Source of the DNA: Candidatus Methanomethylophilaceae archaeon
GTDB taxonomy: Archaea; Thermoplasmatota; Thermoplasmata; Methanomassiliicoccales; Methanomethylophilaceae
Direction: 5' to 3'
Length of the DNA stretch: 64,000 nucleotides
Assembly: GCA_017524805.1 (NCBI GenBank)
Contig: JAFXUX010000009.1
Location: forward strand, 1 to 64,000
Shown here: in pieces, positions 26,950 through 64,000 of the stretch
Layout of the letters: every line of letters starts with the position of its first letter
Position numbering within the stretch: the stretch's first letter is position 1
Program-made: the position numbers and the translations under genes
The notes under the pieces: generated by a model
What the model was told of the DNA's origin: nothing
Seen by the model: the letters and a program-made list of their open reading frames with translations, nothing else
Database searches by the model: none

Positions 26950-28185
26950 TCAATACCTGTTGTCGAAGAATCTATTGGTTTTCTTCTCTGAGCGGGGAAG
27001 GTATCCGACATCGACGGCTTTCGATGCCACGGTCACGCCTATGCGCGATTTTATCAGGGCCGTCATTTCGCGTTCGAGCTCGGCGCGGGAATCTTCCTGG
27101 CGATCGGTCTCGAAATACAGCGTGATCATGTCCTTCCCTTCGAGATGGTCGATCATGACCTGGTATTCCCCGGTGGCGCCGTCCAAGGCGGATATGGCCT
27201 CATCGTACTGCGCGGGGAACATGTTGACCCCTTTGACCTTGACCATGTCGTCGGTCCTTCCGACGATGATGTCTATGCGCGGGAATCTGGAGCCGCAAGG
27301 GCATTCTCCGGGGATGATCCTGGTGAGATCATGCGTCCTGTACCTTATCAATGGGGCGCCTTCCTTCCTGAAAGCCGTTATCACAAGCTCGCCGGTCTCC
27401 CCATCAGGAAGGATTTCGCCGGTGTTGGGGTCGATTATCTCGAAATAGACGTAATCGTCCCACATATGGATGCCGTTGCGATAATCGCAGCTTATGCCGA
27501 TTCCTGGGCCGTAAATCTCGGTGAGGCCGTAGATGTCGTAGAAATCCACGCCGAGGCTTTCGGCGATGCTCTGCCTCATCTTCTCGCCCCAACGTTCGGA
27601 TCCGATTATTCCCTTTTTCAGGAACAGTTCATCCCTGATCCCGCGCTTCTCGATCTCCTCCGAAAGCAGAAGGGCATAAGAGGACGTCCCGGTGATCACG
27701 GTCGTCTTCATATCCTTCATCATGCGGAGCTGCTTCTCGGTATTCCCGGGGCCCATAGGGATGGCCATTGCTCCCAGCCTCTCGCATCCCGCTTGGAATC
27801 CTATCCCGGCCGTCCAAAGGCCGTAACCGGGGGTTATCTGGATGCGGTCGTTCTCCGTCACGCCAGCCATCCTGTAGCACCGCTCGAACATGACCGCCCA
27901 GTCCTCGACGTCCCTTCTGGTGTAAGGGATCACAACTGGCGTCCCTGTGGTTCCGGAAGAGGAGTGTATCCTCACAATGTCCCTCTCGGGCACCGCGGCG
28001 AGACCCAGCGGATATGCCTCGCGGAGATCGCCTTTATCGGTGAACGGGAGCGTCTCGAACTCCTCCTGGGTGGACATGGACGACACGTCGATGCCTTCGT
28101 ATTTCTTGGCGTAAAAGGGGCTCCTTTCCTTGATCGTGGACAGCAGCCTGAAAATGTTCTCTTTCTGATATCCGTTCATCCTCAT
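26950..28185 (-). CDS. phenylacetate-CoA ligase-like adenylate-forming enzyme
   Basis: A 411-residue PaaK-family acyl-CoA ligase. The P-loop-like HSSSGTTGTPVVIPYT (about 93-108), IYGLTEIYGPG (about 217), ELVITAFRKEGAPLIRYRTHD and GRTDDMVKVKGVNMFP (about 310-330) are characteristic. It activates a carboxylic acid to its AMP ester and then its CoA thioester. Phenylacetate or another aryl or indole acid is possible; methanogens use such ligases for aromatic amino-acid synthesis from aryl acids. I start at ATG 28185, which has the ribosome site AAGGAAGG and overlaps the Sel1 gene stop. Confidence 0.88.
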   Translation of the reverse strand: MRMNGYQKENIFRLLSTIKERSPFYAKKYEGIDVSSMSTQEEFETLPFTDKGDLREAYPLGLAAVPERDIVRIHSSSGTTGTPVVIPYTRRDVEDWAVMFERCYRMAGVTENDRIQITPGYGLWTAGIGFQAGCERLGAMAIPMGPGNTEKQLRMMKDMKTTVITGTSSYALLLSEEIEKRGIRDELFLKKGIIGSERWGEKMRQSIAESLGVDFYDIYGLTEIYGPGIGISCDYRNGIHMWDDYVYFEIIDPNTGEILPDGETGELVITAFRKEGAPLIRYRTHDLTRIIPGECPCGSRFPRIDIIVGRTDDMVKVKGVNMFPAQYDEAISALDGATGEYQVMIDHLEGKDMITLYFETDRQEDSRAELEREMTALIKSRIGVTVASKAVDVGYLPRSEKKTNRFFDNRY

Positions 28186-28919
28186 CGGGACGCCTTCCTT
28201 ATCTCTGTCAGCAGCTCTGCTGCCTCCGCATTTCCGCGGCCCGCGGCTTTCTTGAGCCATTTCTCCGCGTTGCGAAGGCTGAGAACCATGCCCTCCCCGG
28301 ACATGGACATCTTCCCCAGCATCAGCATGGCTTCGTCCAAGCCCAGATCTGCGGCTTTTGAGAAGTATTTCGACGCTTTATCCGGGTTCTTCGGGAATCC
28401 CTTGCCGTTCAGATGCATCATCCCCAATCTGTAGCCTCCCTTGGGATACCCGTGGGTGAGACATAGGTCATACCCTTCTGCCGCCTTGGCGTAATTTACG
28501 GGAACGCCGCGGCCTTCCTCGTCCATGACAGCCACGCGATATGCCGCAATCAGATTGCCTGCCTCTGCGGCCTTAGAATACCATTCGTACCCCTCGGCCC
28601 AATCCTGCTCGATGCCTTCCACGTCGGTGAGCATGAAGCCGAGATTGAACATTGCCGGCGGGTATCCGAGCTCGGCGGATTTCCTGTACAGTTCCATCGC
28701 CTTATCCAGATCCGCGCGTATCCCCTCGCCATGGGCTCTCATATGTCCCAGATTGCACATGGCTTCGGCGTTGCCCTGGTCCGCGGCCAGCCCGAACCAT
28801 CTTGCCGCCTCCCTGCGGTCCATCCCGACGCCGTCCCCTCTGTAGAACAGATATCCCATGGCGACCTGGGCATCCGGATCGCCCTCTCTGGCGGCGTTCA
28901 GAACCGTTTCGAAAGACAT
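28182..28919 (-). CDS. Sel1-repeat protein (third of operon)
   Basis: A 245-residue protein of tandem Sel1-like repeats, about six units of 36 residues. Examples are AQVAMGYLFYRGDGVGMDRREAARWF near residues 18-43 and AMCNLGHMRAHGEGIRADLDKAMELY. Sel1 repeats form a TPR-like solenoid for protein binding. ATG 28919 (MSFETVLNAAREGDPD) begins the repeat region at once; the longer open frame upstream is the shadow of the preceding gene. It starts one base after the previous stop and its own stop overlaps the ligase ATG. No signal peptide, so probably cytoplasmic. Confidence 0.85.
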   Translation of the reverse strand: MSFETVLNAAREGDPDAQVAMGYLFYRGDGVGMDRREAARWFGLAADQGNAEAMCNLGHMRAHGEGIRADLDKAMELYRKSAELGYPPAMFNLGFMLTDVEGIEQDWAEGYEWYSKAAEAGNLIAAYRVAVMDEEGRGVPVNYAKAAEGYDLCLTHGYPKGGYRLGMMHLNGKGFPKNPDKASKYFSKAADLGLDEAMLMLGKMSMSGEGMVLSLRNAEKWLKKAAGRGNAEAAELLTEIRKASR

Positions 28920-28920
28920 C

Positions 28921-29994
28921 TCAATGCCCCCTGACCCTGCGGACGTATACCTCCGGATGGTCCACGTAGCGGCCGAGATAATAGAATGCGGCCAGGAATC
29001 CGTTCGCGGCTGCCTGGGCGTAGTATCTGATGGCCAACGCCTCATCCCTCGGATAACGGTCGCTGTCGTATACCTTGCCGAGCGTGAATTGGGCATCGCA
29101 GGAGCCTGCCGCCGCCGCGCGGGTTAGAAGATCCAGAGATTTGCTGTCGCTGCGTCTGACGCAGATTCCCTGGTGATACATCATCGCGATCGCGAACAGC
29201 GCGTCGGGCTCTCCGAGCTCGGCTGCGGAACTGAAAAGCTTGAAAGCCGCGACCTCATCACCGGAAGCCAGCGCCTCATCTGCCTGATTCATGTAGAACG
29301 ACATGAGGTCGGTCTCCTTCTGGACGCCGGTGCTGCTTATCGCGTTCATTCTGGACTCGTAAGACTCGGATTCACCCAGAGATGCGCGGGAGAGACACAT
29401 GATGCATTTCTCATGGCCCATATCAGCCCCGTGCTGATACCATCTCAGGGCTTCGCTGACATTCTTGGATATCCCGTTCAAACCGTACTCATAATCCAAG
29501 CCTATGTCCAGGAATATGTCGGCATCCCCGGAGACAGAGACGGATGAGAACCACATCTCCGAATCTTCGGCCGACGATTGGACGTCGGATGCGGACTGCA
29601 GAAGATATCCGACCATGAATTTGGCCAGTATGTGCCCTTTTGTGGCCGCCGCCCTGAACCACGACAGAGCCAGGGAATCGTCGCGCTCCACGATCCTTCC
29701 GGAACGGTACTCGCATGCGATGGCATACTGGGCGTCCATATTCCCCATCTCCGATGCGGACATGAGATGACCCATGTATTTCGCGATATCCTGGGGGATC
29801 AGATCCCCGTTCAGGTAAAGCTTTGCCAATTCCCAATGGGCTCTGGGGCATCCGCCGGAAGCGGCGCGCTCATACCACGAGACTGCGCTGTCGATGTTCT
29901 GGTCAACGCCGATGCCTTCTTGATAGTAATATGCGACTCCAAGGCACGCATAAGGATCGCCCAGCTCGGCGGCGCGGAATATAGGCTCTCTCAC
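28921..29994 (-). CDS. Sel1-repeat protein (second of operon)
   Basis: A 357-residue Sel1-repeat protein, roughly eight or nine units, some degenerate in the middle (about 140-260). Clear units include ACLGVAYYYQEGIGVDQNIDSAVSWYERAA near the N-terminus and AQFTLGKVYDSDRYPRDEALAIRYYAQAA near the C-terminus. The likely start is GTG 29994, which overlaps the stop codon of the gene before it (GTGA); a TTG three bases further upstream is the alternative. Function is presumably scaffolding; no catalytic domain is visible. Confidence 0.82.
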   Translation of the reverse strand: MREPIFRAAELGDPYACLGVAYYYQEGIGVDQNIDSAVSWYERAASGGCPRAHWELAKLYLNGDLIPQDIAKYMGHLMSASEMGNMDAQYAIACEYRSGRIVERDDSLALSWFRAAATKGHILAKFMVGYLLQSASDVQSSAEDSEMWFSSVSVSGDADIFLDIGLDYEYGLNGISKNVSEALRWYQHGADMGHEKCIMCLSRASLGESESYESRMNAISSTGVQKETDLMSFYMNQADEALASGDEVAAFKLFSSAAELGEPDALFAIAMMYHQGICVRRSDSKSLDLLTRAAAAGSCDAQFTLGKVYDSDRYPRDEALAIRYYAQAAANGFLAAFYYLGRYVDHPEVYVRRVRGH

Positions 29995-31472
29995 CAACGT
30001 TTCCTCTCCGACTTGATTTTGCTGAGCAATGCAGCGGCATCAGGGTCGCCTTTCTTCATCGCTCTGGTCAGATGCTTCTTAGCTTTGCCGAGATCCTTTT
30101 TGACGTATTCGCCCTCATAATAGAGCTGACCCAGATAGAAATCGGCATCCGGGAAATCCGATTCGGCGGCTTCGTTCAGATCTTCCAGACCGGCCTTTAT
30201 ATCTTGTGGAACTCCGCGGCCGGTGATGCGCATCATACCGATGAAAGCTTTGGCTGCGGGGTGGCCTTGATCGGACGCCTGATCGAACCAGACCGCGGCT
30301 TGCTCATCATCCTTGTCCGTCCCGCGGCCGTCGTGATAGAAGCAAGCCAAAGCGTATTGAGAATTCGGCTCGCTCATCTCGGCGGCGTCCTTGAAGAACT
30401 CGAATGCTTTGGCGTCGTCCCTTTCGAAATACATGCCGTTGCCGTACATGCATCCGAGAGCATATTTTGCATAGCCGTTGCATCTGTCCGACGCGACGGT
30501 GAACCAATGAGCGGCCTTCTCGAAATCCTGGGGGACCAGCTGCCCGTCCAGACACAGCTTGGCGTAATCCGTCATCGCCTGCTGGAATCCGTTCTCGCAG
30601 GATTCTTCCAGCCATTTGACCGCCAATTCTGGATCCCTCTTCAACCCATCCCCGTAGGCGTACGAAAGGCCGACCTGATACTGGGCTTCAGCATGGCCTT
30701 GCTCGGCGGCCTTCAAGAAATAATCCATGCCTTTGGAAGGGTTTGTGAACTTGTTTCCGGGTGTGGAATAAACGCAAGCCGCGTTGAACTGCGCCTCGGG
30801 ATCTCCTGCCTCGGACGCGCGGACGTACCATTCCATGGCCTTGGAGAGATTGGGCGCGGTGTCGCAGAGGCCTCTGTCATACATCTGCCCGAGATGATAC
30901 ATAGCAGAAGCGGAACCATTGTCAGCAGCTTTCTGAAGCCAGTAGACCGCTTTCTCACGGTCCTTGCGGATCCCCTTCCCCATGAGATACATGAAACCGA
31001 TGGCGCTCTGCGCGGCCGGGTTGTCGTCCTCTGCGCATACAGTATACCATCTCACGGCCTCTGCATGGTTTTTCTTAACTTCCGATGTCCCTTTGTCATA
31101 CATCGCAAACAATTCGGAGCAGGAATCTGGATCCCTCTGCTCGCCGCTCAGCCTGAGCGCAAGAAGCCTGTCCATCACATCCTCCGGATTCTTGGAAAGC
31201 TCGGAAACGACGATCGCGGCTTCTTTGGACCCGGATGACGCGGCAAGAGCGAACAATTCCCCTGCGGTTTTCTTGTCTACGATTGTGTTGGCGGCCCCGG
31301 TATAAAGGAAAAGGGCATGAAGATACTGGGCGTCCGGTATGGCTTCCCCCGCGCCGCGTTCGGCCTCTGCGGCGGCACCCTTGAGATCGTATGAGACGGA
31401 GCCACAATCCATGAGGCCGCGCGACGGCATATAGTAGCCATCTTGGGAGACCATTTTTTCGGACATGCCCAT
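29991..31472 (-). CDS. Sel1-repeat protein (first of operon)
   Basis: A 493-residue Sel1-repeat protein with about eleven repeats from residue 45 to 480, for example AQSAIGFMYLMGKGIRKDREKAVYWLQKAADNG and AQYQVGLSYAYGDGLKRDPELAVKWLEES. The first 40 residues are not repeat. It heads a five-gene leftward operon (three Sel1 proteins, PaaK-like ligase, IMPase-like phosphatase) joined by overlapping or nearly touching stops and starts. TATA-like TTTAATATA lies about 20-28 bases upstream; ATG 31466 is an alternative start two codons later. Confidence 0.85.
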   Translation of the reverse strand: MGMSEKMVSQDGYYMPSRGLMDCGSVSYDLKGAAAEAERGAGEAIPDAQYLHALFLYTGAANTIVDKKTAGELFALAASSGSKEAAIVVSELSKNPEDVMDRLLALRLSGEQRDPDSCSELFAMYDKGTSEVKKNHAEAVRWYTVCAEDDNPAAQSAIGFMYLMGKGIRKDREKAVYWLQKAADNGSASAMYHLGQMYDRGLCDTAPNLSKAMEWYVRASEAGDPEAQFNAACVYSTPGNKFTNPSKGMDYFLKAAEQGHAEAQYQVGLSYAYGDGLKRDPELAVKWLEESCENGFQQAMTDYAKLCLDGQLVPQDFEKAAHWFTVASDRCNGYAKYALGCMYGNGMYFERDDAKAFEFFKDAAEMSEPNSQYALACFYHDGRGTDKDDEQAAVWFDQASDQGHPAAKAFIGMMRITGRGVPQDIKAGLEDLNEAAESDFPDADFYLGQLYYEGEYVKKDLGKAKKHLTRAMKKGDPDAAALLSKIKSERKRW

Positions 31473-31614
31473 CTTTATGCATAAATCCCTATATTAAATC
31501 TACAAAAATGTCTGGGAACAGTCTGCCGCCGACGATCTGGCTCGGAATAATATGTCACTTTCGGGCACCCCTCCCTTTCTCAGTCTTAAATACGCTTTCC
31601 ACCTGGTTTGAATC

Positions 31615-32472
31615 ATGGGAGAAACCTACGCTGAGAATTCGACATATACGAGGAAAATCGGGTTCCCTGGAAGAGAACTTCCTGGTTTCAGATTGCCGAG
31701 GCGTGAAGGGGCCGCCGATCGCAGCGGTTTCGGGGAAAGCGATAGGGACTGCGGAAACCAAGAACCCAGGAAAATGCTTCCTCCAGCGAAGAAAGCCATA
31801 AGTGCATCATCGCATATGACTTATGGAAGCGAAATGGAGTTGCCGCCAGAAAAAATGGAGGCCAGGAAGAAGGCTGCATCCATAATTCTCAACAGAATCA
31901 GCGGCAGCTATGAATTCGCTTTCAAAACATTCTCAGATGAAGAATGCGAGAATTCGTCCGAAGCCCAGTTTTTCCTCGGAATAATGTATCTTTATGGATA
32001 CGGCACCGAAAAGAACGATTCGAAAGCCTTCGAGCACATGGAAAAATCCTATGAATTGGGCAACCCCAACTCCGCCTATTATCTCGGCCTCATGTATCTG
32101 AACGGCATAGGGACTTTCAAAGTCGCGTTCAAAGCCATGGCCTTGTTCAAGGAAGCGGCCCATAACAACGAGAATGACCATCGCGCTCAGCTCCAGATAG
32201 GGCTCATGTACTTGGAGGGCGTGGGAACGGTCGAAAACCCGGAGAACGCATTCAAATGGATCAAAAGGGCGGCCGAACATACGGACGCCGAAGCCCAATT
32301 CATTCTCGGCCAGCTATACAGAGTTGGGTACGGATGCAAGAAAGATCCCGGATCCATGAAGAACTGGCTAGAATTGGCGGCGGCAAGGGGCCACCTGGGA
32401 GCGAACACCCTTCTCGGCAATATCTACACGAATGGCGATGGGGTCCGCGCCAACAAGGAAAGGGGCCAATAG
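31615..32472 (+). CDS. Sel1-repeat protein ending at an amber codon inside a repeat
   Basis: A 285-residue protein to the TAG at 32470. Residues 1-75 are basic and not repeat-like; Sel1 repeats run from about residue 105 (AQFFLGIMYLYGYGTEKNDSKAFEHMEKS) to the end. The last repeat, LLGNIYTNGDGVRANKERGQ, stops at TAG, yet the same frame continues CYDIGDGKRPLP to TGA at 32506, and CY falls where the Sel1 consensus has its W-Y pair. This is the only complete gene here whose apparent stop is TAG, so readthrough or pyrrolysine is possible. Start 31615 is supported by CTTAAATAC 26 bases upstream; ATG 31819 is an alternative. Confidence 0.7.
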   Translation: MGETYAENSTYTRKIGFPGRELPGFRLPRREGAADRSGFGESDRDCGNQEPRKMLPPAKKAISASSHMTYGSEMELPPEKMEARKKAASIILNRISGSYEFAFKTFSDEECENSSEAQFFLGIMYLYGYGTEKNDSKAFEHMEKSYELGNPNSAYYLGLMYLNGIGTFKVAFKAMALFKEAAHNNENDHRAQLQIGLMYLEGVGTVENPENAFKWIKRAAEHTDAEAQFILGQLYRVGYGCKKDPGSMKNWLELAAARGHLGANTLLGNIYTNGDGVRANKERGQ

Positions 32473-39712: not shown

Positions 39713-40645
39713 ATGCAAGACCCTGCCGAACTGTGCCGCAAAGCGGCGGAATGCTTCTGCGACGACCCCCAAAGATCGCTCGAATTGTTCTCCGAGGCTG
39801 CGAAGAGCGGTTTCCCGAACGCATTCTTCGGCATAGCTGAGATGAAAATGTCCGGACAGCTGGAAGAGCCCGACCCGGCGGCCGCGGAAGAGCTTTATTT
39901 GGCGGCGGCGGAAGCGGGGCACCCGCCATCCATGTACAGACTGGGGATGCTTTTCTCCGGGGCCGGAGGCCATGAGGAGAATCCCGAACTCTGCAGGATG
40001 TGGTTCGAAAAAGCCGCTGAAGCGGGGATGGAAGAAGCGTACCCCGAGATATCAGATATATGCATGTGCGGATACGGAGGGGAGGTCGACGCTGAGAAAG
40101 GGCTCAGATATTGCCGCCTGAGCGCAGATGCCGGAGACCCGATGTCCTGCTTCAAACTCGGATGCATGCTTTCGGATGGGATCGCCGCCGAAATAGACGA
40201 TAAAGAAGCCCTTCGCCTGTTCAGGATAGCCGCATTCAAAGGAGTCCCCGAAGCCCAATTCAAAATGGGATTGCTTGCCCAAGAAGGGAAAACCAGCGAT
40301 GACGACATGCCGGCCGCGAAATGGTACGAAATGGCGGCGGACGCAGGCCTTGCGGCGGCCAAATTCAACCTCGGAACTCTCTATTATGAAGGAAATGGCG
40401 TGAAAAAAGACTTGAAAAAGGCGTTCTCTCTCTACAAAGAAGTCTCGGAAACCAACGAAGGGGATGCGCTTTTCATGGTCGGACGGATGCTGATGGAAGG
40501 CTTGGGAACCGAGAAAGACCCGCAAAAAGGGCTCGAATACTTCGGCAAAGCGGCGGCGGCCGGAAACCCTCTTGCTTCAGAGTTCCTGAAAAACATCGAG
40601 CGCCGGCAAAACGCGCAGCTCATCACTGCAGATGACATAAAATGA
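39713..40645 (+). CDS. Sel1-repeat protein upstream of Hsp70 operon
   Basis: A 310-residue protein with about seven Sel1 repeats, among them MYRLGMLFSGAGGHEENPELCRMWFEKAAEAG and AKFNLGTLYYEGNGVKKDLKKAFSLYKEVSE. No signal peptide. It has its own TATA-like TTAAAC about 26 bases before the ATG and lies 87 bases upstream of the Hsp70-VWA gene on the same strand. Sel1 solenoids often work as adaptors in chaperone and degradation pathways, so a role with the neighbouring chaperone-like operon is conceivable but unproven. Confidence 0.83.
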   Translation: MQDPAELCRKAAECFCDDPQRSLELFSEAAKSGFPNAFFGIAEMKMSGQLEEPDPAAAEELYLAAAEAGHPPSMYRLGMLFSGAGGHEENPELCRMWFEKAAEAGMEEAYPEISDICMCGYGGEVDAEKGLRYCRLSADAGDPMSCFKLGCMLSDGIAAEIDDKEALRLFRIAAFKGVPEAQFKMGLLAQEGKTSDDDMPAAKWYEMAADAGLAAAKFNLGTLYYEGNGVKKDLKKAFSLYKEVSETNEGDALFMVGRMLMEGLGTEKDPQKGLEYFGKAAAAGNPLASEFLKNIERRQNAQLITADDIK

Positions 40646-40732: not shown

Positions 40733-42769
40733 ATGGGCAGAAGGGCTGGGATTGACTTAGGAACGACGTTCTCATTGATAGCTATTATGAAGAACGGGAG
40801 GCCCGAAATTATCAAGAATAGCTACGACAGCGAGCTGACGCCGTCCGCTGTATGCTTCAGCGAGGGCAAAATCCTTGTGGGAAATGAAGCGTACGCCAGA
40901 ATCGCGGATGGGACGGGCAACGGGATTACCGCATTCAAATCCCGTATGGGCGACGATTCCCCGTTGATATGCGGAAATGGCGAGGAATACGACGCAGAAG
41001 AGCTGTCAGCGATCCTCCTCAAGGAAATGATCAAGGAGGCGGAGGACCGCATCGGAGAGAAGATTACGGAAGTCGTCATCACCGTTCCGCACTATTTCGA
41101 CGAATCCCGGAGGATAGCCACCAAAAAAGCGGGCGAAGAGTGCGGAGTCAGAGTCCTCAGACTGCTCAATGAGCCGACATCTGCGGCGCTCTATTATGGC
41201 TACAACCATTTCGAGAGGAAGACCATCATGGTGTATGACCTCGGAGGAGGGACTTTCGACACCAACATCATCCACTTCGAGAATGGGAAGACAGAGGTCA
41301 TATCCACCAACGGCAACCACAGCCTGGGAGGCAAGGATTGGGACGCCGAGCTTGCTGCGATCGCCTGCAGGAGGTTCTTTGCCGAATACGGCGTCAACCC
41401 GTTCGACGACAAGAACTTCCGCAATGTGCTGATGGCCACCGCCGAGAAGGTGAAGAAACAGCTTTCCTCGGCCAAGAACGCCATGTTCCAGATCGAATAT
41501 GAAGGCAAGAAAGGGAGCTATAACATCACGAGGGACGAACTGCGCGATGCGACGATGCACCTCATGCAGCTCACCAAAGAGCTGTGCGAAGAAGCCCTCA
41601 GCGCGAAGGGACTCAAATGGCAGGACATCGACGAGATCCTTCTCATCGGCGGATCCAGCAGAATGCCTATCATCCAAGAGTTCTTGGAAGAGAACACGCC
41701 GTGCAACATAGTCCACCATCCCGACATGGAATTGGCGGTCGCCAAAGGAGCCGCCATCGATGCGGATCATTTCCGTGAGGGGCTCACCGACAAACCCATC
41801 CTGCATGACATCACGTCCCACAGCCTCGGAGCACTGTCCATAAAAGAGAACGAGGACAGGTTCATCAACGAGATAATAATCCCCAAAAACTCCAAGATCC
41901 CATTCGAAGCGACCAAATCCTTCAAGCTGGAGAAAGGCAACAGGGCGAATTACATCGAAGTCTACGCGTTGCAAGGGGAATCGACCGACCCCACCGAATG
42001 CGTCGTGGTCACCGAAGCAGTGATCAACGGATTCAGGAACGATGGCAATGGGGTAGTCATCAACGTTACGTACAGCTACGATGAGAACGGCGTCGTCAAA
42101 ATCACCGCGGACAGCGATGGGAAACCCCTGAACGTGACCGCCAAATCGCTTCCTGACATCGGCTGGATCGAGGGAAGGCCTTCCGAAAGGGCCTCCCAGA
42201 ACAACACTGAGAAGAACATCGTGGTCTGCCTCGACCTGTCCAGAAGCATGACGTTCAAGGACAGGGACAGCGGAGCCATCCCTCTCGATGAAGCCAAGAA
42301 TTCCATCATCCAATTCGTCGACAGCCTCGGCACCGAAAACAACTACTTCTCCCTCATAGGGTTCGGCGATTCCATGAGCGTGCTCTGCGAACTGACCAAA
42401 GACCTCGGGAAATTCAAAAGCGCGCTGGAAAAGACCAGAGCCAAAGATATGGGCAGAGGCACCAGGGCGATCCCCCTCGGCCTCGCCAAATCCGTGGCCG
42501 AGGAAGAAGGCAGGATGGGAATCATCGTGACCGTCACCGACGGGGAATGGGAGAAAAAAGATGAAGCCATCGGCGAGGCCCGCAAAGTCGGTATGCCCAT
42601 CTTTGCCATCGGTTTCGGCGAAGCCAACGAAGGATTCCTCAGACAGATCTCGACTGTGGAGAGGGGCGCGCTTTACACTACGATCGACAGGCTGGGCCAC
42701 ACGTTCCAGACTATCGCCACCGCCATCAGAACCGAAAGCATGAGCCTCAGAGACCCGAACGGAGAATGA
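40733..42769 (+). CDS. Hsp70 (DnaK-like) ATPase fused to von Willebrand A domain
   Basis: A 678-residue fusion. Residues 1-360 form an Hsp70 nucleotide-binding domain: phosphate-1 GIDLGTTFS, ITVPHYFDESRR, LLNEPTSAALYYGY, VYDLGGGTFD and LIGGSSRMP. Residues 365-475 resemble the Hsp70 beta-sandwich substrate domain, starting DITSHSLGA. The helical lid is replaced by a VWA domain from about 495 to 670 with an intact metal site: DLSRS at 501-505, GRGTRAIP and TDGEW. VWA domains bind protein partners through a metal ion. It is the first gene of five tightly coupled genes. This order, Hsp70 first and VWA in place of the lid, is not a classic DnaK. Binding of specific clients rather than general folding is inferred. 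Confidence 0.88.
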   Translation: MGRRAGIDLGTTFSLIAIMKNGRPEIIKNSYDSELTPSAVCFSEGKILVGNEAYARIADGTGNGITAFKSRMGDDSPLICGNGEEYDAEELSAILLKEMIKEAEDRIGEKITEVVITVPHYFDESRRIATKKAGEECGVRVLRLLNEPTSAALYYGYNHFERKTIMVYDLGGGTFDTNIIHFENGKTEVISTNGNHSLGGKDWDAELAAIACRRFFAEYGVNPFDDKNFRNVLMATAEKVKKQLSSAKNAMFQIEYEGKKGSYNITRDELRDATMHLMQLTKELCEEALSAKGLKWQDIDEILLIGGSSRMPIIQEFLEENTPCNIVHHPDMELAVAKGAAIDADHFREGLTDKPILHDITSHSLGALSIKENEDRFINEIIIPKNSKIPFEATKSFKLEKGNRANYIEVYALQGESTDPTECVVVTEAVINGFRNDGNGVVINVTYSYDENGVVKITADSDGKPLNVTAKSLPDIGWIEGRPSERASQNNTEKNIVVCLDLSRSMTFKDRDSGAIPLDEAKNSIIQFVDSLGTENNYFSLIGFGDSMSVLCELTKDLGKFKSALEKTRAKDMGRGTRAIPLGLAKSVAEEEGRMGIIVTVTDGEWEKKDEAIGEARKVGMPIFAIGFGEANEGFLRQISTVERGALYTTIDRLGHTFQTIATAIRTESMSLRDPNGE

Positions 42770-42773
42770 GGAC

Positions 42774-45740
42774 ATGACCGGGTGCTACTGCCAGCTCCTC
42801 GGAATCAATCCATACAAAGAGAGCGAATACAACGACCAGGCCCTTGAGAAAGCCATCGAAGCCGCCAAGAACAGATGGAACGCCGAGAAGAATGCGTTCG
42901 ACGAGAACGTGCGCTATGACGCGGACAGCAATCTGAACCAATTGGAAGACATCTACGAGAGGATGTCGTATCCGAAGACGAGAGCGGAGGAATTCAAGAA
43001 AGGAAGAGAGCTTCTGAAGAGCTACCTCCAGCCCATATTGAATTACTGCGTGGTGACCGAGGACGGCAAGGCATACGCGTTCCAGACCGCTTTGAAAGGT
43101 CAGATCGCCAGGCTGGCTTGGCCAGGCATCACGGAAAAAGATGCCGCGGAGATACTTGATCTCGGGGAAGGATCTCCTCCCCTCCCGATCGGCAGAAAGG
43201 CTGCGGATGAATACCGCAAACTCAGCGATATGGGATACCATACCCCGGCTCAGGTGCTCAACTATCTGATATCCAAGCTCCAAATCGCCAATTGCCATCC
43301 GCTCAGCGACGCAAGCCCAGCGGTATCGGTGAGGGAAGCCATAACGGCCTGCGTCCCCAAGCTCGAGATGGACAGGAAAAACTTCCCTGGCCATAAGACC
43401 TATCTGGATTGCGTCAGGCGCCTCAAATACATGTCCGACAAGGACCTGGAGGAGCTCATAGAATATGGGAGATGCCGCCAGGATCTAAGCCAGGTTACCG
43501 AGAGGCTCAAGCTGGAATACAACGACAGGATAACCCGCAAACAGATCGATGACCTTCTGGAGACCTTCCGCGTGAGCGACCAGAAGATGGCTATCCCGGC
43601 GTTGGAATCGTTCTGCTACGAGAACGGTCTCGCAGCGGATTTCTCCGGGACGAGAAGCGAATCCATCAGATGCCCGTTCTGCAAGAACTTCATCAGCGGC
43701 AGCGAAGACGTGTCCTACTGCCCGATCTGCAAGCGCAAAATCAAGAAGAAATGCCGCAGATGCGGGACGGTACAGAGCAATCAGAACAAGATATGCGTCA
43801 GCTGCGGATTCGACTTCGACAATGAGATGAAGAATGCGACCAAACTCGGGGCCGCAGTCCGGGATTTCATCGATATGGGCGATTTCAAAAAAGCGGAGAT
43901 GGCATTGGCGGAGCTCGAAAGAGACTATTCCGAGATCATCAAAACCGAGGTGCTGGAATCTGAGATTGACAGCTCGAAGAAGATCATGTCGACCCTCACC
44001 AAACTGATGGACGACGCGTACTCTTCCGGCAGATACTGCCACTTCCTAGATCTTTGCGGCAAACTGCATTCCGAATTCCCCGGCGCCATCGAAAATGACA
44101 TCGATCTGAGGGAAAAGATCCGCGTGGCGGAGGAGCGCTGCAAATTGGCGGAAAAGGCCTGCGAGGAAGCCGCCGATAAGACGACTCATGAAGAAAAACT
44201 CATGCTTTACGTCAAAGCCAGCGACCACTGCAAAGACTGGCCGGAATCCAGGGATTATCTGATGGCTTACCCGCCCGATAACGTGGTCGATTGCGACGGG
44301 ACCACGAAGGACGGGGTCGTGAGGATCTCTTTCACCCCTCCGTCTGACACTAAAGATGTCGTCTATTGCATCTGGCGCGGCGAAGGGAGCGAACCGTACG
44401 CCGACGAGAACACCAAGCCGTACGAGGTCATCTCCAAGCATAAGCTGGACAGCTACTACGAGGACAAGAACGTGGAATCGGGGGTGAAATATTACTATCT
44501 CCTCTGCACCAGACGCTGGGGAATCCTCTCCAGCCCGATGAAGCTGATAGGGCCCCTAGTCCCATTCGAGCCCGTAGATAAAGTCAACATCGTGCGCACC
44601 GAGGATGGGTTCCACATCACCTTCGCCAGACCGAAGAAATCGATAGGTGTCCTCATAAGAAGATACGTCAAGGACGAGGACGACAGATACGTCGAGCACG
44701 AGATCAAGAATGCCGAGGAATATGACGACATATGCCTCAGAGGAACGACGTATTACTACCAGTTCTTCGCCGAATACTTCGTCGACGGGAGGATAGAGCT
44801 CTCGGACAAGAACGTCCAGTCAGCCTCGTCCATGGAGCTGCCTCCGCCCGTGACGGACCTCAAAGTCAACCGCAACAGAAACGGCACCTATACCGCCAGA
44901 TGGACATCCAGCATGGAAGCCAAACTGTACAGATCAGAGCGGAAGCTGAAATTCAACAGCAGAGTGATGATGATGGATGACGTCAGATCTCTGATGAAGG
45001 AAGTGGAGCCTGTGGACAACTATTCCGACGGCATCTCCTTCTCGATGGATGGCGGCGCCATTTGGTACCTCTTCCCGATCATACAGGTGGGAAAGACGGC
45101 GGTGAGAGGCGACGAGGTCTGCGTGATCAATCTGGAGCCTTTCAAGAACATCGAGAGGACGGTGAAAGACGGGGATTGCATCATAACCATGGACTGGCCG
45201 CAATCCGCGCTCGGAGCAGAGCTGAGGATCTCCGACGTCAATGTCGCCGATTCGGAAGACCCAAGGCTGATGGTTAGGTCCGTCAGCCGCAAGGAGTACG
45301 AGGACAAAAGGCAGATCGTCGTCCCGATGGGGAAATCGACGACCAAATTCGTGTATATATTTGCCAAATACAAATATGAGGACGAAATCCGCCTGTCCCA
45401 CCCCACGATGATCAGCGCCTTCTCCGCGTCCTGCAGGAAGGTCAGATATTCCGCTTCCCGCGATAGGAAAAGCATATCCTTCAGGATTCAGACCGACCCT
45501 GGCGTTGACAGCATCCCCGAGATCATGGCGGTGCAATCCGACGGCAGATTCCCGCTGAGGTCCGGGGACGGGAAGACCGTGTGGAAATCCGGCGGCGCCG
45601 TGTCGCTGTCCGGTGGGACTGCCACCGTTTCCTTCGCCGCGGAACCCCAGATGGAAGTCGAAAAGATGAGGCTGTTCTTCTGCGAAGAATCGAACTACAA
45701 CATATTCAAGTTCATCCACCCACTGTACAGGAGGGATTGA
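42774..45740 (+). CDS. large zinc-ribbon, beta-sandwich protein with J-domain-like N-terminus
   Basis: A 988-residue protein I cannot assign to a named family. Residues 1-75 resemble a J-domain in layout (CYCQLLGINPYKESEY, helix, IYERMSYPKTRAEEF), but the HPD tripeptide that activates Hsp70 is missing. Residues 80-295 are helical. Two zinc ribbons follow at about 300-350 (IRCPFCKN, YCPICKRK, CRRCG, CVSCGF). Another helical part reaches about 500, and four or so fibronectin-III-like beta sandwiches fill the rest (for example ARPKKSIGVLIRRYV and NGTYTARWTSS). No membrane helix. It starts four bases after the Hsp70-VWA stop. A large scaffold that brings chaperone, client and GTPase together would fit, as inference. 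Confidence 0.75.
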   Translation: MTGCYCQLLGINPYKESEYNDQALEKAIEAAKNRWNAEKNAFDENVRYDADSNLNQLEDIYERMSYPKTRAEEFKKGRELLKSYLQPILNYCVVTEDGKAYAFQTALKGQIARLAWPGITEKDAAEILDLGEGSPPLPIGRKAADEYRKLSDMGYHTPAQVLNYLISKLQIANCHPLSDASPAVSVREAITACVPKLEMDRKNFPGHKTYLDCVRRLKYMSDKDLEELIEYGRCRQDLSQVTERLKLEYNDRITRKQIDDLLETFRVSDQKMAIPALESFCYENGLAADFSGTRSESIRCPFCKNFISGSEDVSYCPICKRKIKKKCRRCGTVQSNQNKICVSCGFDFDNEMKNATKLGAAVRDFIDMGDFKKAEMALAELERDYSEIIKTEVLESEIDSSKKIMSTLTKLMDDAYSSGRYCHFLDLCGKLHSEFPGAIENDIDLREKIRVAEERCKLAEKACEEAADKTTHEEKLMLYVKASDHCKDWPESRDYLMAYPPDNVVDCDGTTKDGVVRISFTPPSDTKDVVYCIWRGEGSEPYADENTKPYEVISKHKLDSYYEDKNVESGVKYYYLLCTRRWGILSSPMKLIGPLVPFEPVDKVNIVRTEDGFHITFARPKKSIGVLIRRYVKDEDDRYVEHEIKNAEEYDDICLRGTTYYYQFFAEYFVDGRIELSDKNVQSASSMELPPPVTDLKVNRNRNGTYTARWTSSMEAKLYRSERKLKFNSRVMMMDDVRSLMKEVEPVDNYSDGISFSMDGGAIWYLFPIIQVGKTAVRGDEVCVINLEPFKNIERTVKDGDCIITMDWPQSALGAELRISDVNVADSEDPRLMVRSVSRKEYEDKRQIVVPMGKSTTKFVYIFAKYKYEDEIRLSHPTMISAFSASCRKVRYSASRDRKSISFRIQTDPGVDSIPEIMAVQSDGRFPLRSGDGKTVWKSGGAVSLSGGTATVSFAAEPQMEVEKMRLFFCEESNYNIFKFIHPLYRRD

Positions 45741-46995
45741 GGCGGCATTCTGGAAAAAGACCAAGAAAAAACCGACGGGGACGTACAAATGCCCGTACTG
45801 CTCCGCCAAATTCTCGATGGATGAGGTCCACTGCGTCTGCTTCAACAGGTTCTGCGCCGCGAACTTCGCCAGCTCAGAAAGGAACAGGGGCGGCAGATAC
45901 GCCACCGCCGACGGGATGCATGAGATCGACTACGAGAGGACAGTCTTCCGCGGGATAGACCCCAAGAGCAGCAAGGCAATCATCACGAACCACCATATCA
46001 TCCGCAATTCCTCCATGGAATGCGACATGTGCAAAAGGCCGGTATCCGTGCGCATATGCCCGTACTGCCACAGCGAAATACCTCCGGGAGCGGAGGAAAG
46101 CGGGAACAAGATATTCGTCGTGCTGGGGCCGAAGGGAGTGGGTAAAAGCCACTACATCGGGGTGCTCATAAACAGGCTCAGCAACACCGTGGCCAACGAA
46201 TTCGGCGCGGTATTCAATCCCGCCGGGGATTCGACGATCGACAGGTACCGCGAGATCTATGGCAACCCCCTTTTCACGGCGAAAAGGACGCTCCCGTCCA
46301 CCGTACCTTACGATGCGTCGGAAGACTCCAGAGAGCCTCTGATCTACTATCTGAACATGAAATCCGGGGACAGGCAGATAGTCCACACCTTTGCGTTCAT
46401 AGATACCGCAGGGGAAGACCTGGAAGGGACGGACAGAGCCGCAGAGACCAATCTGGACAATCTCATAGCGAACGCATCCGGAATCGTGTACCTTGTGGAT
46501 CCCCTCCAAATCAAATACATCAGGGATCGCATCCACATGGACGATCTCCCGCCGATCAGAGGTAGCGCATCGGAGACGCTCACCATGATCAGCAACATAA
46601 TCCGCGGCAAGAGGGAGGGCCTGAACCCTAACGCCCGGATAGACATACCTCTGGCGGTCGCGCTGACCAAATGCGACTTGCTGCTGAAACCGGCTAAGAA
46701 CGATGAGGAGGACTTGATCTTCCTGTCGCCGGGATCGGCTGTGCGCATCCCCCGCGAAACCGGTTCCTTCGACAAAGAGAACTTCGATCAGATAGACGCT
46801 GAGATCGAGGAATATCTGAGAAGGACCGCGGGGGAGGAATTCATACAGATAGTGAACGGGTTCGCAGACCATTGCTACTTCGCGGTGTCCGCCCTGGGGA
46901 ACAATCCCGAAGGCGAAGAACTCCTGCGCGGTGTGATGCCCATGAGAGTCGAAGACCCATTCATATGGCTCCTCAACAGGAAAGGAATGGAATGA
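45736..46995 (+). CDS. zinc-ribbon P-loop GTPase, possible ATT start
   Basis: About 419 residues if read from ATT 45736; 392 residues from the first ATG at 45817. The longer form completes an N-terminal zinc ribbon (YKCPYCSAKF, then CVCFNRFC). A second ribbon is ECDMCKRP and ICPYCHSEIPPG. The GTPase domain has P-loop LGPKGVGKSHY, G3 DTAGEDLEG and G4 TKCDLL. It resembles the DO-GTPase (double-GTPase) type found with VWA and chaperone-like partners in bacterial systems, a resemblance not tested here. Between the upstream in-frame stop at 45667 and 45817 there is no ATG, GTG or TTG; ATT at 45736 overlaps the previous stop codon much as ATGA overlaps do. Confidence 0.8.
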   Translation: MEAAFWKKTKKKPTGTYKCPYCSAKFSMDEVHCVCFNRFCAANFASSERNRGGRYATADGMHEIDYERTVFRGIDPKSSKAIITNHHIIRNSSMECDMCKRPVSVRICPYCHSEIPPGAEESGNKIFVVLGPKGVGKSHYIGVLINRLSNTVANEFGAVFNPAGDSTIDRYREIYGNPLFTAKRTLPSTVPYDASEDSREPLIYYLNMKSGDRQIVHTFAFIDTAGEDLEGTDRAAETNLDNLIANASGIVYLVDPLQIKYIRDRIHMDDLPPIRGSASETLTMISNIIRGKREGLNPNARIDIPLAVALTKCDLLLKPAKNDEEDLIFLSPGSAVRIPRETGSFDKENFDQIDAEIEEYLRRTAGEEFIQIVNGFADHCYFAVSALGNNPEGEELLRGVMPMRVEDPFIWLLNRKGME

Positions 46996-47840
46996 GCGGT
47001 GAAAAAGAGAACAAACTTGTGAGTTTCATCATGAACGGCCGCAGAACCATGGAACAGGAAGAGCAACCGCAGAATGACGAGGAGACGCGGGAATGGGACA
47101 GCTCTGCGGCAGAGAAGATCTTCGAGAGGCTGGATTCGATAGAGAAGGCCATCTCGGAGCTGGGATCGCCGATGACCGTCCCAGAACCTGATTTGGAGCC
47201 GCTGGAATCTGCCGTCCGTGATCTCCGCGAGAAAACCGAAGCAGATGCTGCGGAGATCGCCGCGGAGATCAGGGAACTCAAAGGGAAAGAGACCGAGAAA
47301 CAGGACCTCACCCCCTATATGACATCCAGGGAGCAGATGAAGACCATCATCGCCGCCGTGGAGAGGCGCGACGCCGAGATCACGGACAAGGCCTTCTCCA
47401 GAGCCATGGAGCAGGTCGCGACGATGAGGGAGGATTTCCTGAAGCTGTGCCTCAGCATCAGGGAAAGGATCGATTCCATGGGCGTGGAAGATGTGCTTTC
47501 CTCGTTCGAAGCTTACATGATAGACTTGGAGAACATACTGTGCGACGGAGGGGTGTACATCGGCCCCTTCCCATACGAAAAACTCAAGACCTCTCACCAA
47601 CGCATCGTCGGGGTGATCCCCACCGCGGATCCCAACCAAAATGGGATGGTAGCGGAAAGGATGACGGATGGTTACAAGCTGGGGAACAAAGTCCTCATAA
47701 AAGAGAAAGTGACCGTTTATCGGCTGTCCGAGAGCATGATGAACGCGGAGAAAGAGCCCGAGCCTGAACCAGAGGCCGCAATAGAAACGACTTCCGAAAC
47801 CGCTTCCGAAGAAGAAACAAAACAGGAGGAGATAGAATGA
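46992..47840 (+). CDS. GrpE-like nucleotide exchange factor candidate
   Basis: A 282-residue acidic protein. The first 60 residues are disordered, followed by a coiled coil (about 30-90 and 120-160). The segment from about 190 to 240 resembles the GrpE beta domain: RIVGVIPTADPNQNGMVAERMTDGYKLGNKVL matches the GrpE pattern of G-x-V, E-x-x-x-x-G-Y-x-L and a final VTVY strand. The tail is Glu-rich. GrpE speeds ADP release from Hsp70, so it would serve the two Hsp70 proteins flanking it. The identification is by eye and is weaker than for the Hsp70 genes. Start and stop overlap both neighbours (ATGA). Confidence 0.7.
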   Translation: MSGEKENKLVSFIMNGRRTMEQEEQPQNDEETREWDSSAAEKIFERLDSIEKAISELGSPMTVPEPDLEPLESAVRDLREKTEADAAEIAAEIRELKGKETEKQDLTPYMTSREQMKTIIAAVERRDAEITDKAFSRAMEQVATMREDFLKLCLSIRERIDSMGVEDVLSSFEAYMIDLENILCDGGVYIGPFPYEKLKTSHQRIVGVIPTADPNQNGMVAERMTDGYKLGNKVLIKEKVTVYRLSESMMNAEKEPEPEPEAAIETTSETASEEETKQEEIE

Positions 47841-49414
47841 CGGATCAATGCGTCGGAATAGATCTTGGAACGACATATTCGTGCCTCGCGTACATAGATG
47901 AGGATGGCAATCCCGCAGTAGAGAAGAACTACGAGCAAGGGGAAACGACGCCTTCGGTCATCCTATTCAACGAGAACGGCGAGGTAGTGGTCGGGAATTC
48001 CGCCAAGGACCAGGCCCTCATGTACTCCAAGGACAGGGTCATAAGCGCCATAAAGAGAAGCATGGGCCAGGATTACTCGGTCACCATAGACGGGAACACA
48101 TACAACCCGACCCAGCTGTCCGCCATGATCCTCAGGAAGCTCATCGGCGACTTCGAAGAGAACCACGGATGCACCTTGGACCGCGCCGTGATCACCGTCC
48201 CCGCTTACTTCGGCGAGAACCAGAAGGATCAGACCAAGACCGCCGGGATCATCGCCGGCCTCAAGGAGGTTTTCCTCATCAACGAGCCGACCGCCGCGGC
48301 CATCGCCTTCGGATACGGCGAACCCAAGGACAAGAAAGAGAGAGTGCTCGTCTACGATCTGGGAGGCGGAACCTTCGATGTCACCATACTGGAGATCGAC
48401 AGCGGCGAATTCTCCACCGTGGCCACCGATGGCGCGATGTACCTCGGAGGGAAGGACTGGGACGCAGACCTCACCGACATAATCCTGGAGAAGGTCGCGG
48501 AGGAATCAGGGACCGACAAGAACGTCCTCAAAGACGACCCGGACATAATGCAGACTCTGGCTTACGACTCCGAGACGATCAAGAAGAGGCTCTCCACCGC
48601 CGAGAACACCAAGGGCACTCTCACAGTGGACGGCCACAAATACGTCTTCAACATCAACCGCGACGAATTCGAGAGCAGATCCGAGGCCAACCTCCTCCAG
48701 ACCATCGACATAATCCACAGGGTTCTCGAATCGAAATCCTTCACCATGGATGACATCGATGAGATCATCCTCGTCGGCGGATCCAGCAGGATGCCCCAGG
48801 TCAAGAACGCGATCGCAGCCAACTTCCCCGGGAAGGACATCAAGATCTACGATCCCGACCAGTCGGTCGCCAAGGGAGCGGCTCTGTACGCCCATTCCCT
48901 GATGCTCGCAGACCTTGAGGCGAGAGGAGAAGCCCCGGCCATCGGCGAAGGGGACGAACCGCCCAGAAGGGTGACCATCAAGAACGTGCTGAGCAAGACC
49001 TTCGGCATCAAGGCGATCTACGAGGACGGCTCCGAGAAGATATCCAACCTCATCTTCAGGAATGAGACGCTCCCGATCACCAAGACCAAGATCTACTATC
49101 CCGTCGAAGACGATCAGAGCTCCATCAAAGTGGAGATCTTCGAGAGCGCCGCCCTCAACAACGAAGAGGGCCACAAGACCGACACCGACGATGGAAACCT
49201 CATCGGAGATTTCACCATGGACCTCCCTCCGGGAACCAGCAAGGACACGCCGATCGAAGTCACGTTCCTCGCAACCGAGGAAGGGATCCTGACGGCCAAC
49301 GTCAAGTGCGAGGACGAGAGCAGGGAATACAAGCTCCACAACGACCTGACGATGACCGAGGAAGAGATCTCCAAGTCCCAGAGCCTCATGGAAAAGGTCA
49401 TCAGAAGTGAATGA
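47837..49414 (+). CDS. second Hsp70 (DnaK-like), lid missing
   Basis: A 525-residue Hsp70 relative. The ATPase domain is well conserved: GIDLGTTYSCLAY, ITVPAYFGENQKDQT, LINEPTAAAIAFGYG, VYDLGGGTFDVTI and LVGGSSRMPQV. The substrate beta domain follows from about residue 375 (VLSKTFGIKAIY) to 500. The helical lid of DnaK, about 100 residues, is absent and the protein ends soon after the beta domain. It is more DnaK-like than the VWA fusion and may be its partner. ATG overlaps the GrpE-like stop; it is the last gene of the operon. Expression is likely shared with the whole operon. Confidence 0.9.
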   Translation: MTDQCVGIDLGTTYSCLAYIDEDGNPAVEKNYEQGETTPSVILFNENGEVVVGNSAKDQALMYSKDRVISAIKRSMGQDYSVTIDGNTYNPTQLSAMILRKLIGDFEENHGCTLDRAVITVPAYFGENQKDQTKTAGIIAGLKEVFLINEPTAAAIAFGYGEPKDKKERVLVYDLGGGTFDVTILEIDSGEFSTVATDGAMYLGGKDWDADLTDIILEKVAEESGTDKNVLKDDPDIMQTLAYDSETIKKRLSTAENTKGTLTVDGHKYVFNINRDEFESRSEANLLQTIDIIHRVLESKSFTMDDIDEIILVGGSSRMPQVKNAIAANFPGKDIKIYDPDQSVAKGAALYAHSLMLADLEARGEAPAIGEGDEPPRRVTIKNVLSKTFGIKAIYEDGSEKISNLIFRNETLPITKTKIYYPVEDDQSSIKVEIFESAALNNEEGHKTDTDDGNLIGDFTMDLPPGTSKDTPIEVTFLATEEGILTANVKCEDESREYKLHNDLTMTEEEISKSQSLMEKVIRSE

Positions 49415-62171: not shown

Positions 62172-62444
62172 AAATAACCGCAATTTGCGAAACCCCTTCC
62201 TTCCGCCTCCTTTCTACATAGAAAGTTGGCATTATGAGTAATCTGAATCAACCTCCCGCAGTCAATTTACCAACCGCAATAATTCCGCCATAGAATCAAA
62301 ATTGGCTTATTTGGCCAATTTATATTTTTGTACAATTACAATTCATTTTTTCCTAATTCAATAGCAAAATAATTGACGCTTGCATTAACTATCAAACGAA
62401 TCCATCATATCATTATTTAACGTACATTATCGTTGTCCCGCCCG

Positions 62445-64000
62445 ATGGAAACCTTAGAGCAATTGATTTCCAAGGCCGAAGCAGGGGACGTGCAGTCCTG
62501 CTTCGAGCTAGGGCAGAGATATGCGCTCGGTGAGGGCACCGATGCGGATGAGAAAGCGGCATTCGATTGGTACCTTCGCGCTGCCAGAGGAGGCAACGTC
62601 ATGGCCCAAAAGGCGGTAGGCATCTGTTATGCCAATGGCATAGCCACAGATGCCAACTGGGATGAAGCAGCCATGTGGTACCTCCGCGCCCTCATGAAGG
62701 GCGACCCGGAAGCGTTCCGCACCCTGTCTGACTATTACGAAACGCACGAAACACCGGCCGACGGTGCCATTCTCGAATATTACCGCAGCGCGTCCGAAAA
62801 GGACGATGCAGATGCCAACTATATGTTGGGCAGGCTGTATGAGCTCGGCGTCGGCACCGCATTCGATCCGGAAAACGCATTCGAATCGTACAAAAAAGCA
62901 TGCGAGAAAGGCCACATCGATGCCAAAGTCAAAGTCGCGACCTGCATCCTCGAAGGATTGGGAACGAGCAGAGACCGCGAAAAAGGAGCGTCGATGATCT
63001 CCAAGCTCTGGGACGAAGGATGTGTCTCAGCGGGATCCGCCCTCGCCAAATGCTACGAGTACGGAACCGGAGTCAAACGCGACCACTCCAAAGTCTTCTC
63101 CATCTACGACCAGATGGTAAGCAAAGGATCGGTCGAAGGGATGTACAACCTCGGAAGATGCTACATGGACGGAATCGGAGTCCCTAAGGACGGCAACTAT
63201 TCGTTCTCCTGGTTCACCGCGGCTGCCATGAGGAACTCCCGCGATGGCATATACGGTCTCGCCAGATGCTATATGGGAGGCATCGGGGTTGACAAAAACA
63301 AGGACACCGGCTTGAAGCTCCTCGAGAACGCATCGAAGCTCGGTCAGACCGACGCCATGATCATGCTGGGACAATTGTACAGCAAAGGCAAGCTCGTGCC
63401 GAAGAACGCCCAGATCTCCGCAGAGAATTTCAAGAGATCTGCCGACCTCGGAGATTCCTACGCCCAGCTGACCACCGGCGACAACTACGCCAACGGAACG
63501 GGCGTCAAGAAAGACGGCAGAGCCGCGCTGAAATACTACATGATGTCCGCCGCGCACGGAAACACCGTCGCCTGCTACAATGTGGGAACCGCTTACGCGC
63601 TCGGAAATGGGGTCAAGAAGAATGAGGAGGCCTCGTTCGAATGGCTCTCCAGAGCTGCCGAGGACAACTTCATGAAAGCGCAGTTCTCCATAGCCGAGGC
63701 ATACTCCAAGGGAAGGGGAACCAAGAAGGACCCCGAGAAAGCCTTCGAGATCCACAAGAACCTCGCCGAGAACGGATTCGGCAAGTCGCAATATCATGTG
63801 GCATACTCCTATTTCGAAGGGATCGGCACCGAGAAGAACGATGCCCTTGCCTACGAATGGTTCCAGAAGGGAGCCCAGAACGGCAACGTCCTGTGCCAGT
63901 ATTATGCTGGATACTGCCTGTGGAATGGGATCGGCGTCGAAGCCGACCAAGACAAAGCCATCGAATGGTACAAGCGCGCCGCAGAGCAGGGACACGTGGT
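62445..64000 (+). CDS. very large Sel1-repeat protein, cut by window end
   Basis: At least 518 residues, open at the right edge. From residue 15 on it consists of Sel1 repeats, about fourteen so far, for example CFELGQRYALGEGTDADEKAAFDWYLRAA and YNVGTAYALGNGVKKNEEASFEWLSRAA. The repeats become more regular toward the window edge. No signal peptide. TATA-like TTATTTAACG lies about 27 bases before the ATG, so the start is well supported. It is the sixth Sel1 gene in the window; the total size and C-terminal domains cannot be seen. Confidence 0.88.
   Translation, partial: METLEQLISKAEAGDVQSCFELGQRYALGEGTDADEKAAFDWYLRAARGGNVMAQKAVGICYANGIATDANWDEAAMWYLRALMKGDPEAFRTLSDYYETHETPADGAILEYYRSASEKDDADANYMLGRLYELGVGTAFDPENAFESYKKACEKGHIDAKVKVATCILEGLGTSRDREKGASMISKLWDEGCVSAGSALAKCYEYGTGVKRDHSKVFSIYDQMVSKGSVEGMYNLGRCYMDGIGVPKDGNYSFSWFTAAAMRNSRDGIYGLARCYMGGIGVDKNKDTGLKLLENASKLGQTDAMIMLGQLYSKGKLVPKNAQISAENFKRSADLGDSYAQLTTGDNYANGTGVKKDGRAALKYYMMSAAHGNTVACYNVGTAYALGNGVKKNEEASFEWLSRAAEDNFMKAQFSIAEAYSKGRGTKKDPEKAFEIHKNLAENGFGKSQYHVAYSYFEGIGTEKNDALAYEWFQKGAQNGNVLCQYYAGYCLWNGIGVEADQDKAIEWYKRAAEQGHV

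Follow-up and report, generated by a model that had tools for sequence, protein, structure and literature searches.

Gene layout at the locus

The window analysed here is a stretch of 64,000 nucleotides. Its source genome belongs to the Methanomassiliicoccales and measures 1.95 Mb in 47 contigs, with 98% completeness. On the + strand of the window, positions 40733-49414 carry five genes running from an Hsp70-VWA fusion through a scaffold protein, a zinc-ribbon GTPase and a GrpE-like factor to a second Hsp70. An earlier note on this DNA had read the region as such a set; all five genes were found where it placed them and its domain reading holds. The features are listed below with the evidence for each.

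40733-42769, + strand: Hsp70-VWA fusion, 678 aa (Pfam HSP70 341 bits, VWA 52 bits; DnaK alignment; conserved motifs)
42774-45740, + strand: scaffold, 988 aa (AlphaFold, Foldseek and profile matches)
45736-46995, + strand: zinc-ribbon DO-GTPase, about 419 aa, start codon uncertain (PF19993, 39 bits)
46992-47840, + strand: GrpE-like nucleotide exchange factor, 282 aa (PF01025, 27.5 bits; Foldseek; profile match)
47837-49414, + strand: second Hsp70 with NBD and beta substrate-binding domain, without lid, 525 aa (PF00012, 336 bits; DnaK alignment)
39713-40645, + strand: Sel1-repeat neighbour, counted outside the module (Pfam Sel1, 7 repeats)

The claim that the genes are coupled stands on a gap of only 4 bp between the Hsp70-VWA and scaffold genes and on ATGA overlaps at both the GTPase/GrpE-like and the GrpE-like/second Hsp70 junctions. 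NCBIfam returned DnaK-type and weak matches for the operon proteins and nothing else.

The operon had also been described as flanked by Sel1 genes. These are indeed present (28182-32472, 39713-40645 and 62433-63998 in the window), and a Sel1 gene neighbours most loci of the genus that we label g1, where it is usually divergent. About 130 Sel1 repeats are however spread over the host genome, so that the flank says little for a functional link. Sel1 was rejected as a module component on this ground and because Sel1 proteins are more numerous in the host-associated clade of the order (PMC7883539). Near the other end of the window, a tyrosine-recombinase-like ORF lies beside a tRNA-Ala gene (2566-2640); the pair (1419-2640) may mark one border of an integrated element, judging by its sequence.

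The two Hsp70 proteins

The Hsp70-VWA protein aligns to DnaK residues 2-478, a span that takes in NBD and beta substrate-binding domain and stops short of the lid; in place of the lid there is a VWA domain with a complete MIDAS. Its ATPase motifs are intact, and the catalytic and MIDAS residues are kept in 53-54 of the 54 orthologues. The second Hsp70 aligns to DnaK up to residue 498, again with NBD and beta subdomain only, and its ATPase residues are conserved in all 52 orthologues. Both alignments thus stop before the lid, in agreement with the earlier view of one Hsp70 with a VWA domain instead of its lid and another that is lid-less. The linker (VLLLD in DnaK) is altered in both proteins, with changes that are conserved across the family, and in the second Hsp70 Asn replaces the equivalent of Asp393 in 52 of 52 orthologues. 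Such a change may loosen coupling. Residue conservation of the Hsp70s, the VWA domain, the GTPase and the zinc cysteines was scored over 52-59 orthologues and is near or complete invariance. Our literature search found nothing on Hsp70-VWA fusions.

Scaffold, GTPase and GrpE-like factor

The AlphaFold model of the scaffold (mean pLDDT 88) begins with an N-terminal helical part, continues with a zinc-ribbon region and helical repeats and ends in a C-terminal array of beta sandwiches; its best Foldseek matches are fibronectin FN3 arrays. The single sequence gives only sub-threshold matches against Pfam. A family profile built from 41 relatives finds, with weak but consistent E-values, DnaJ J-domains at residues ~4-77, zinc ribbons at ~295-370, TPR-like repeats at ~367-509 and titin FN3 at 511-689, and bacterial homologues exceed the Pfam cut-offs for fn3 and the double zinc ribbon (DZR). 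The protein is thus made up of a J-like domain, a helical region, a double zinc ribbon, TPR-like helices and about five FN3-like beta sandwiches, which upholds the J-like, zinc-ribbon and beta-sandwich parts proposed from the letters. The HPD motif, said earlier to be lacking from the J-like part, was looked for in 57 archaeal and 8 bacterial scaffolds and found in none, the window protein included. In several bacterial scaffolds the aligned site shows HP with S, T, G or R as the third residue, which looks like the remnant of an HPD. Mean identities of the FN3 units (0.42-0.54) are close to that of the whole scaffold (0.46), all regions evolving at similar rates; we found no variable effector or hypervariable part in the scaffold.

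The third gene encodes a DO-GTPase2 (PF19993, 39 bits against a cut-off of 27) in which the G1, G3 and G4 motifs and eight zinc cysteines are conserved. Its first ATG is at 45817, yet the conserved frame extends upstream of it and includes a zinc knuckle, CPYC. At the place where relatives start there is no ATG, GTG or TTG, the window having ATT GAG GCG where a relative (G101) has ATT GAG ATG, so that the candidate starts are ATT at 45736 or GCG at 45742 (within 45736-45744). The corresponding locus of a sister species (L048) has the identical ATT/GCG. Since the upstream zinc knuckle is conserved and the sister species shares these codons, a non-canonical start of the GTPase gene is possible.

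The GrpE-like protein is just above the Pfam cut-off (PF01025, 27.5 bits against 25.8). This modest score is backed by the AlphaFold model (mean pLDDT 82), for which the top 12 PDB matches in Foldseek are all GrpE or GrpE-containing, and by a family profile that matches GrpE at 1.1e-5; the identity first given to it is therefore retained.

Distribution and gene order

The scaffold, whole or in pieces, is present in 67 of 147 Methanomassiliicoccales genomes, all of one family (Methanomethylophilaceae) and in five genera of it (31/31, 3/3, 13/14, 15/17 and 5/6 genomes, 67/71 in total). Among 390 Thermoplasmatota genomes no full-length scaffold was found outside this family, the partial matches being to the zinc-ribbon and FN3 regions. 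It occurs in 2 of 398 Bacillota genomes, once partially, a sample that is sparse for judging GAP1-less bacterial operons. In all loci of sufficient length the genes stand in the order Hsp70-VWA, scaffold, GTPase, GrpE, Hsp70. The exception is genus g14, whose operons (L087, L089, L090, L092, L114) have no GrpE gene, the GTPase and Hsp70 genes lying about 75 bp apart. The proposal of a conserved system is thus carried by a gene order that is constant in five genera, one of them without GrpE. As a rule there is one module per genome; one genome (G044) has two GAP1-less copies (L094, L095).

A second GTPase of the DO type, for which membrane segments are predicted from its sequence (TM-type), follows the module in its distribution: of the 67 module genomes 49 have it, as against 3 of the 80 others (Fisher p 4e-20, with phylogeny ignored). 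It adjoins the module in g6, g9 and some of g7 and is encoded elsewhere in the genome in g1; the copy of the host genome lies at C33:124828-126036 and is related to those of the GAP1 clusters described below. It is absent from all of g14 and most of g7. As GrpE is also missing in g14, neither of the two is universally needed. Further TM-type GTPase-like genes lie outside both clusters of the host genome (G000:C24:18978-20899).

Relation to GAP1-linked GTPase systems and other known machines

Kaur, Burroughs, Iyer and Aravind (2020, PMC7159879) predicted from gene context a class of GTPase-centred conflict systems that are built on DO-GTPases and a partner, GAP1. In a second theme of the GAP1-N2 type, that paper places HSP70 and GrpE beside an FN3 protein carrying a DnaJ or TPR fusion, and a subset of it has a second, reduced HSP70 lacking the peptide-binding domain. 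The theme and the window operon have in common the zinc-ribbon DO-GTPase, the FN3/J-like/helical-repeat protein, HSP70, GrpE and a second HSP70; a further likeness is the second, TM-type GTPase, which in the window's genome is encoded elsewhere. As to the peptide-binding domain, both window Hsp70s keep the beta subdomain and are without the lid. The component set had therefore already been described, and the claim of an undescribed system is no more than half right.

There are also differences. The theme has GAP1, whereas Pfam finds no GAP1 domain in the window operon, and by Pfam and our own profile 60 of the 67 module genomes have no GAP1 at all. A mobile neighbourhood with variable effectors, as expected for the theme, is not seen, the window lineage having constant content inherited genus by genus. 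The paper's text, as far as available, describes neither the Hsp70-VWA fusion nor a GAP1-less, chromosomally fixed archaeal version, and the available parts of comparative-genomics papers on Methanomassiliicoccales do not mention the module. We found no experiments on the GAP1-linked relatives in the literature searched.

GAP1 was searched across the 147 genomes with Pfam and with our own 10-sequence profile, and was found in only 7, all of g1 and always with a second cluster. In the host genome this cluster (L009, G000:C33:84742-98411) has GAP1-N2 and GAP1-M (PF20013 43 bits, PF20014 32 bits) and also encodes two tandem TM-type GTPases, a zinc-ribbon GTPase, Hsp70-VWA, scaffold, GrpE and Hsp70. 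It thus holds homologues of all five genes of the window operon (scaffold 28%, GTPase 36% identical), but differs in having GAP1 and two TM-type GTPases within the operon and in being confined to one genus, where 7 genomes have it. Rearranged forms of this cluster occur in at least four further g1 genomes (L105, L106, L109, L111), the second Hsp70 standing at another place within the cluster and a portion of the cluster lying on the other strand.

Homologous operons were examined in eight bacterial genomes (Alkalihalobacterium, Metabacillus, Desulfobacterales, Phaeospirillum, Lachnospiraceae, Aminicenantes, Acidobacteria and Planctomycetia). All have GAP1-N2, and seven have the Hsp70-VWA fusion; the Planctomycetia locus has two Hsp70s in which VWA was not detected. 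The usual bacterial order is GrpE, Hsp70, Hsp70-VWA, scaffold, GTPase, GAP1 and TM-type GTPase, and the block common to the loci is Hsp70-VWA, scaffold and GTPase followed by GAP1.

Other known machines are more distant. With the canonical DnaK-DnaJ-GrpE set the operon shares the Hsp70 ATPase, the GrpE fold and the J-domain ancestry of the scaffold N-terminus, but it is without HPD and lids, has altered linkers, and adds VWA, GTPase and FN3. The MoxR-vWA ternary systems are alike in tying an NTPase chaperone to a VWA domain, but in the window operon VWA is fused to Hsp70 and there is no MoxR and no AAA+ domain over the Pfam cut-off. A CoCoNuT (McrBC-type) system with Hsp70 was considered as well, and this label was dropped because the Pfam scan found no McrB or McrC domain.

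Since GAP1, the hallmark of that class, was tested for and is absent, the operon is classed as a derived relative and not as a GAP1-N2 system. It very probably branched off, as a GAP1-less form, from the GAP1-N2 DO-GTPase systems of the HSP70/GrpE theme. Prediction had already made the class known; what is new is the GAP1-less, fixed archaeal form.

Evolution of the GAP1-less lineage

We built quick trees, which have long branches, for the Hsp70-VWA and GTPase proteins. In the Hsp70-VWA tree all GAP1-less copies are split from the GAP1-linked ones (support 98), and the 7 group labels need 6 changes, which is the minimum possible. In the GTPase tree, rooted on Clostridium loci, the GAP1-less clade (100) is nested among GAP1-linked relatives, which is consistent with a single loss of GAP1. 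The trees disagree on whether the archaeal GAP1-linked copies are closer to bacteria or to the GAP1-less clade. The simplest reading of the sequences would be one acquisition, one GAP1 loss and vertical inheritance. The GAP1-less lineage is a fixed chromosomal gene set in five genera with near genus-by-genus inheritance.

Proposed role and alternatives

As an overall explanation we lean towards a domesticated, vertically inherited, GTPase-gated Hsp70 remodelling machine that would work near the membrane. The scaffold would hold the two dedicated Hsp70s together, its degenerate J-like domain docking on them without the usual triggering of hydrolysis. The zinc-ribbon DO-GTPase may, with the TM-type DO-GTPase as its partner in most species, be a GTP-dependent switch that positions and times the machine at the membrane. 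A dedicated client would be captured by the beta substrate pocket and the VWA/MIDAS, and the GrpE-like factor would reset the Hsp70s. The machine would thereby build or dismantle a protein complex close to the membrane in a regulated way, and would not serve general folding. For the cellular purpose of such a machine, housekeeping remodelling in a dedicated assembly or quality-control role is our tentative choice, held at somewhat less than even confidence.

The earlier note had offered a conflict machine in the same breath as an assembly machine. The operon could still be an immune or conflict system, with the GTPase as sensor of attack and the Hsp70 assembly as multimeric effector or decoy, and this much of the proposal matches the published prediction, which classes the relatives as conflict systems from gene context (PMC7159879). 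Fixation in a lineage is reconcilable with a defence role. Against it, no conserved effector gene (nuclease, TIR, pore or other) accompanies the module in the loci surveyed, where gene content is fixed; the module is usually single-copy and inherited genus by genus, and the FN3 region evolves no faster than the rest of the scaffold. PADLOC-DB also gave no match for four operon proteins and three weak matches to the coiled coil of the GrpE-like protein. The lack of an effector, of signs of mobility and of excess variability in FN3 weakens the conflict half of the proposal; we regard this half as unlikely and rank it below the assembly or quality-control role.

It is improbable that the operon is an auxiliary folding or stress chaperone set, i.e. 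a spare DnaK-DnaJ-GrpE. The presence of a GrpE and the intact ATPase residues of both Hsp70s would suit such a set, but HPD and lids are absent, the altered linkers are conserved family-wide, and a GTPase and a VWA domain are out of place in general folding. Moreover, the host genome has a canonical DnaK of its own and a single canonical DnaJ. The earlier view that all components are specialised is supported. A chance neighbourhood of unrelated paralogues, for which only the modest GrpE score could be cited, is refuted by the gene-order survey and given practically no weight: dozens of species have these five genes in one order, and several bacterial phyla have them in a permuted one.

Returning to the preferred reading of a domesticated remodelling machine, we see a small chance that it represents an Hsp70 machine of a new kind. 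Control of the two lid-less Hsp70s would then lie with a pair of membrane-linked GTPases and a J-like scaffold without HPD, in place of a canonical J-protein, and a conflict system would have been turned into a core function of gut methanogens. The GAP1-less lineage keeps the Hsp70-GTPase core without GAP1 or effectors and passes it on vertically, so that it isolates the job of the core machine and makes it directly testable. It is also a natural experiment in how Hsp70s operate when both lids and an HPD J-protein are missing, and its hosts are gut methanogens relevant to ruminant methane.
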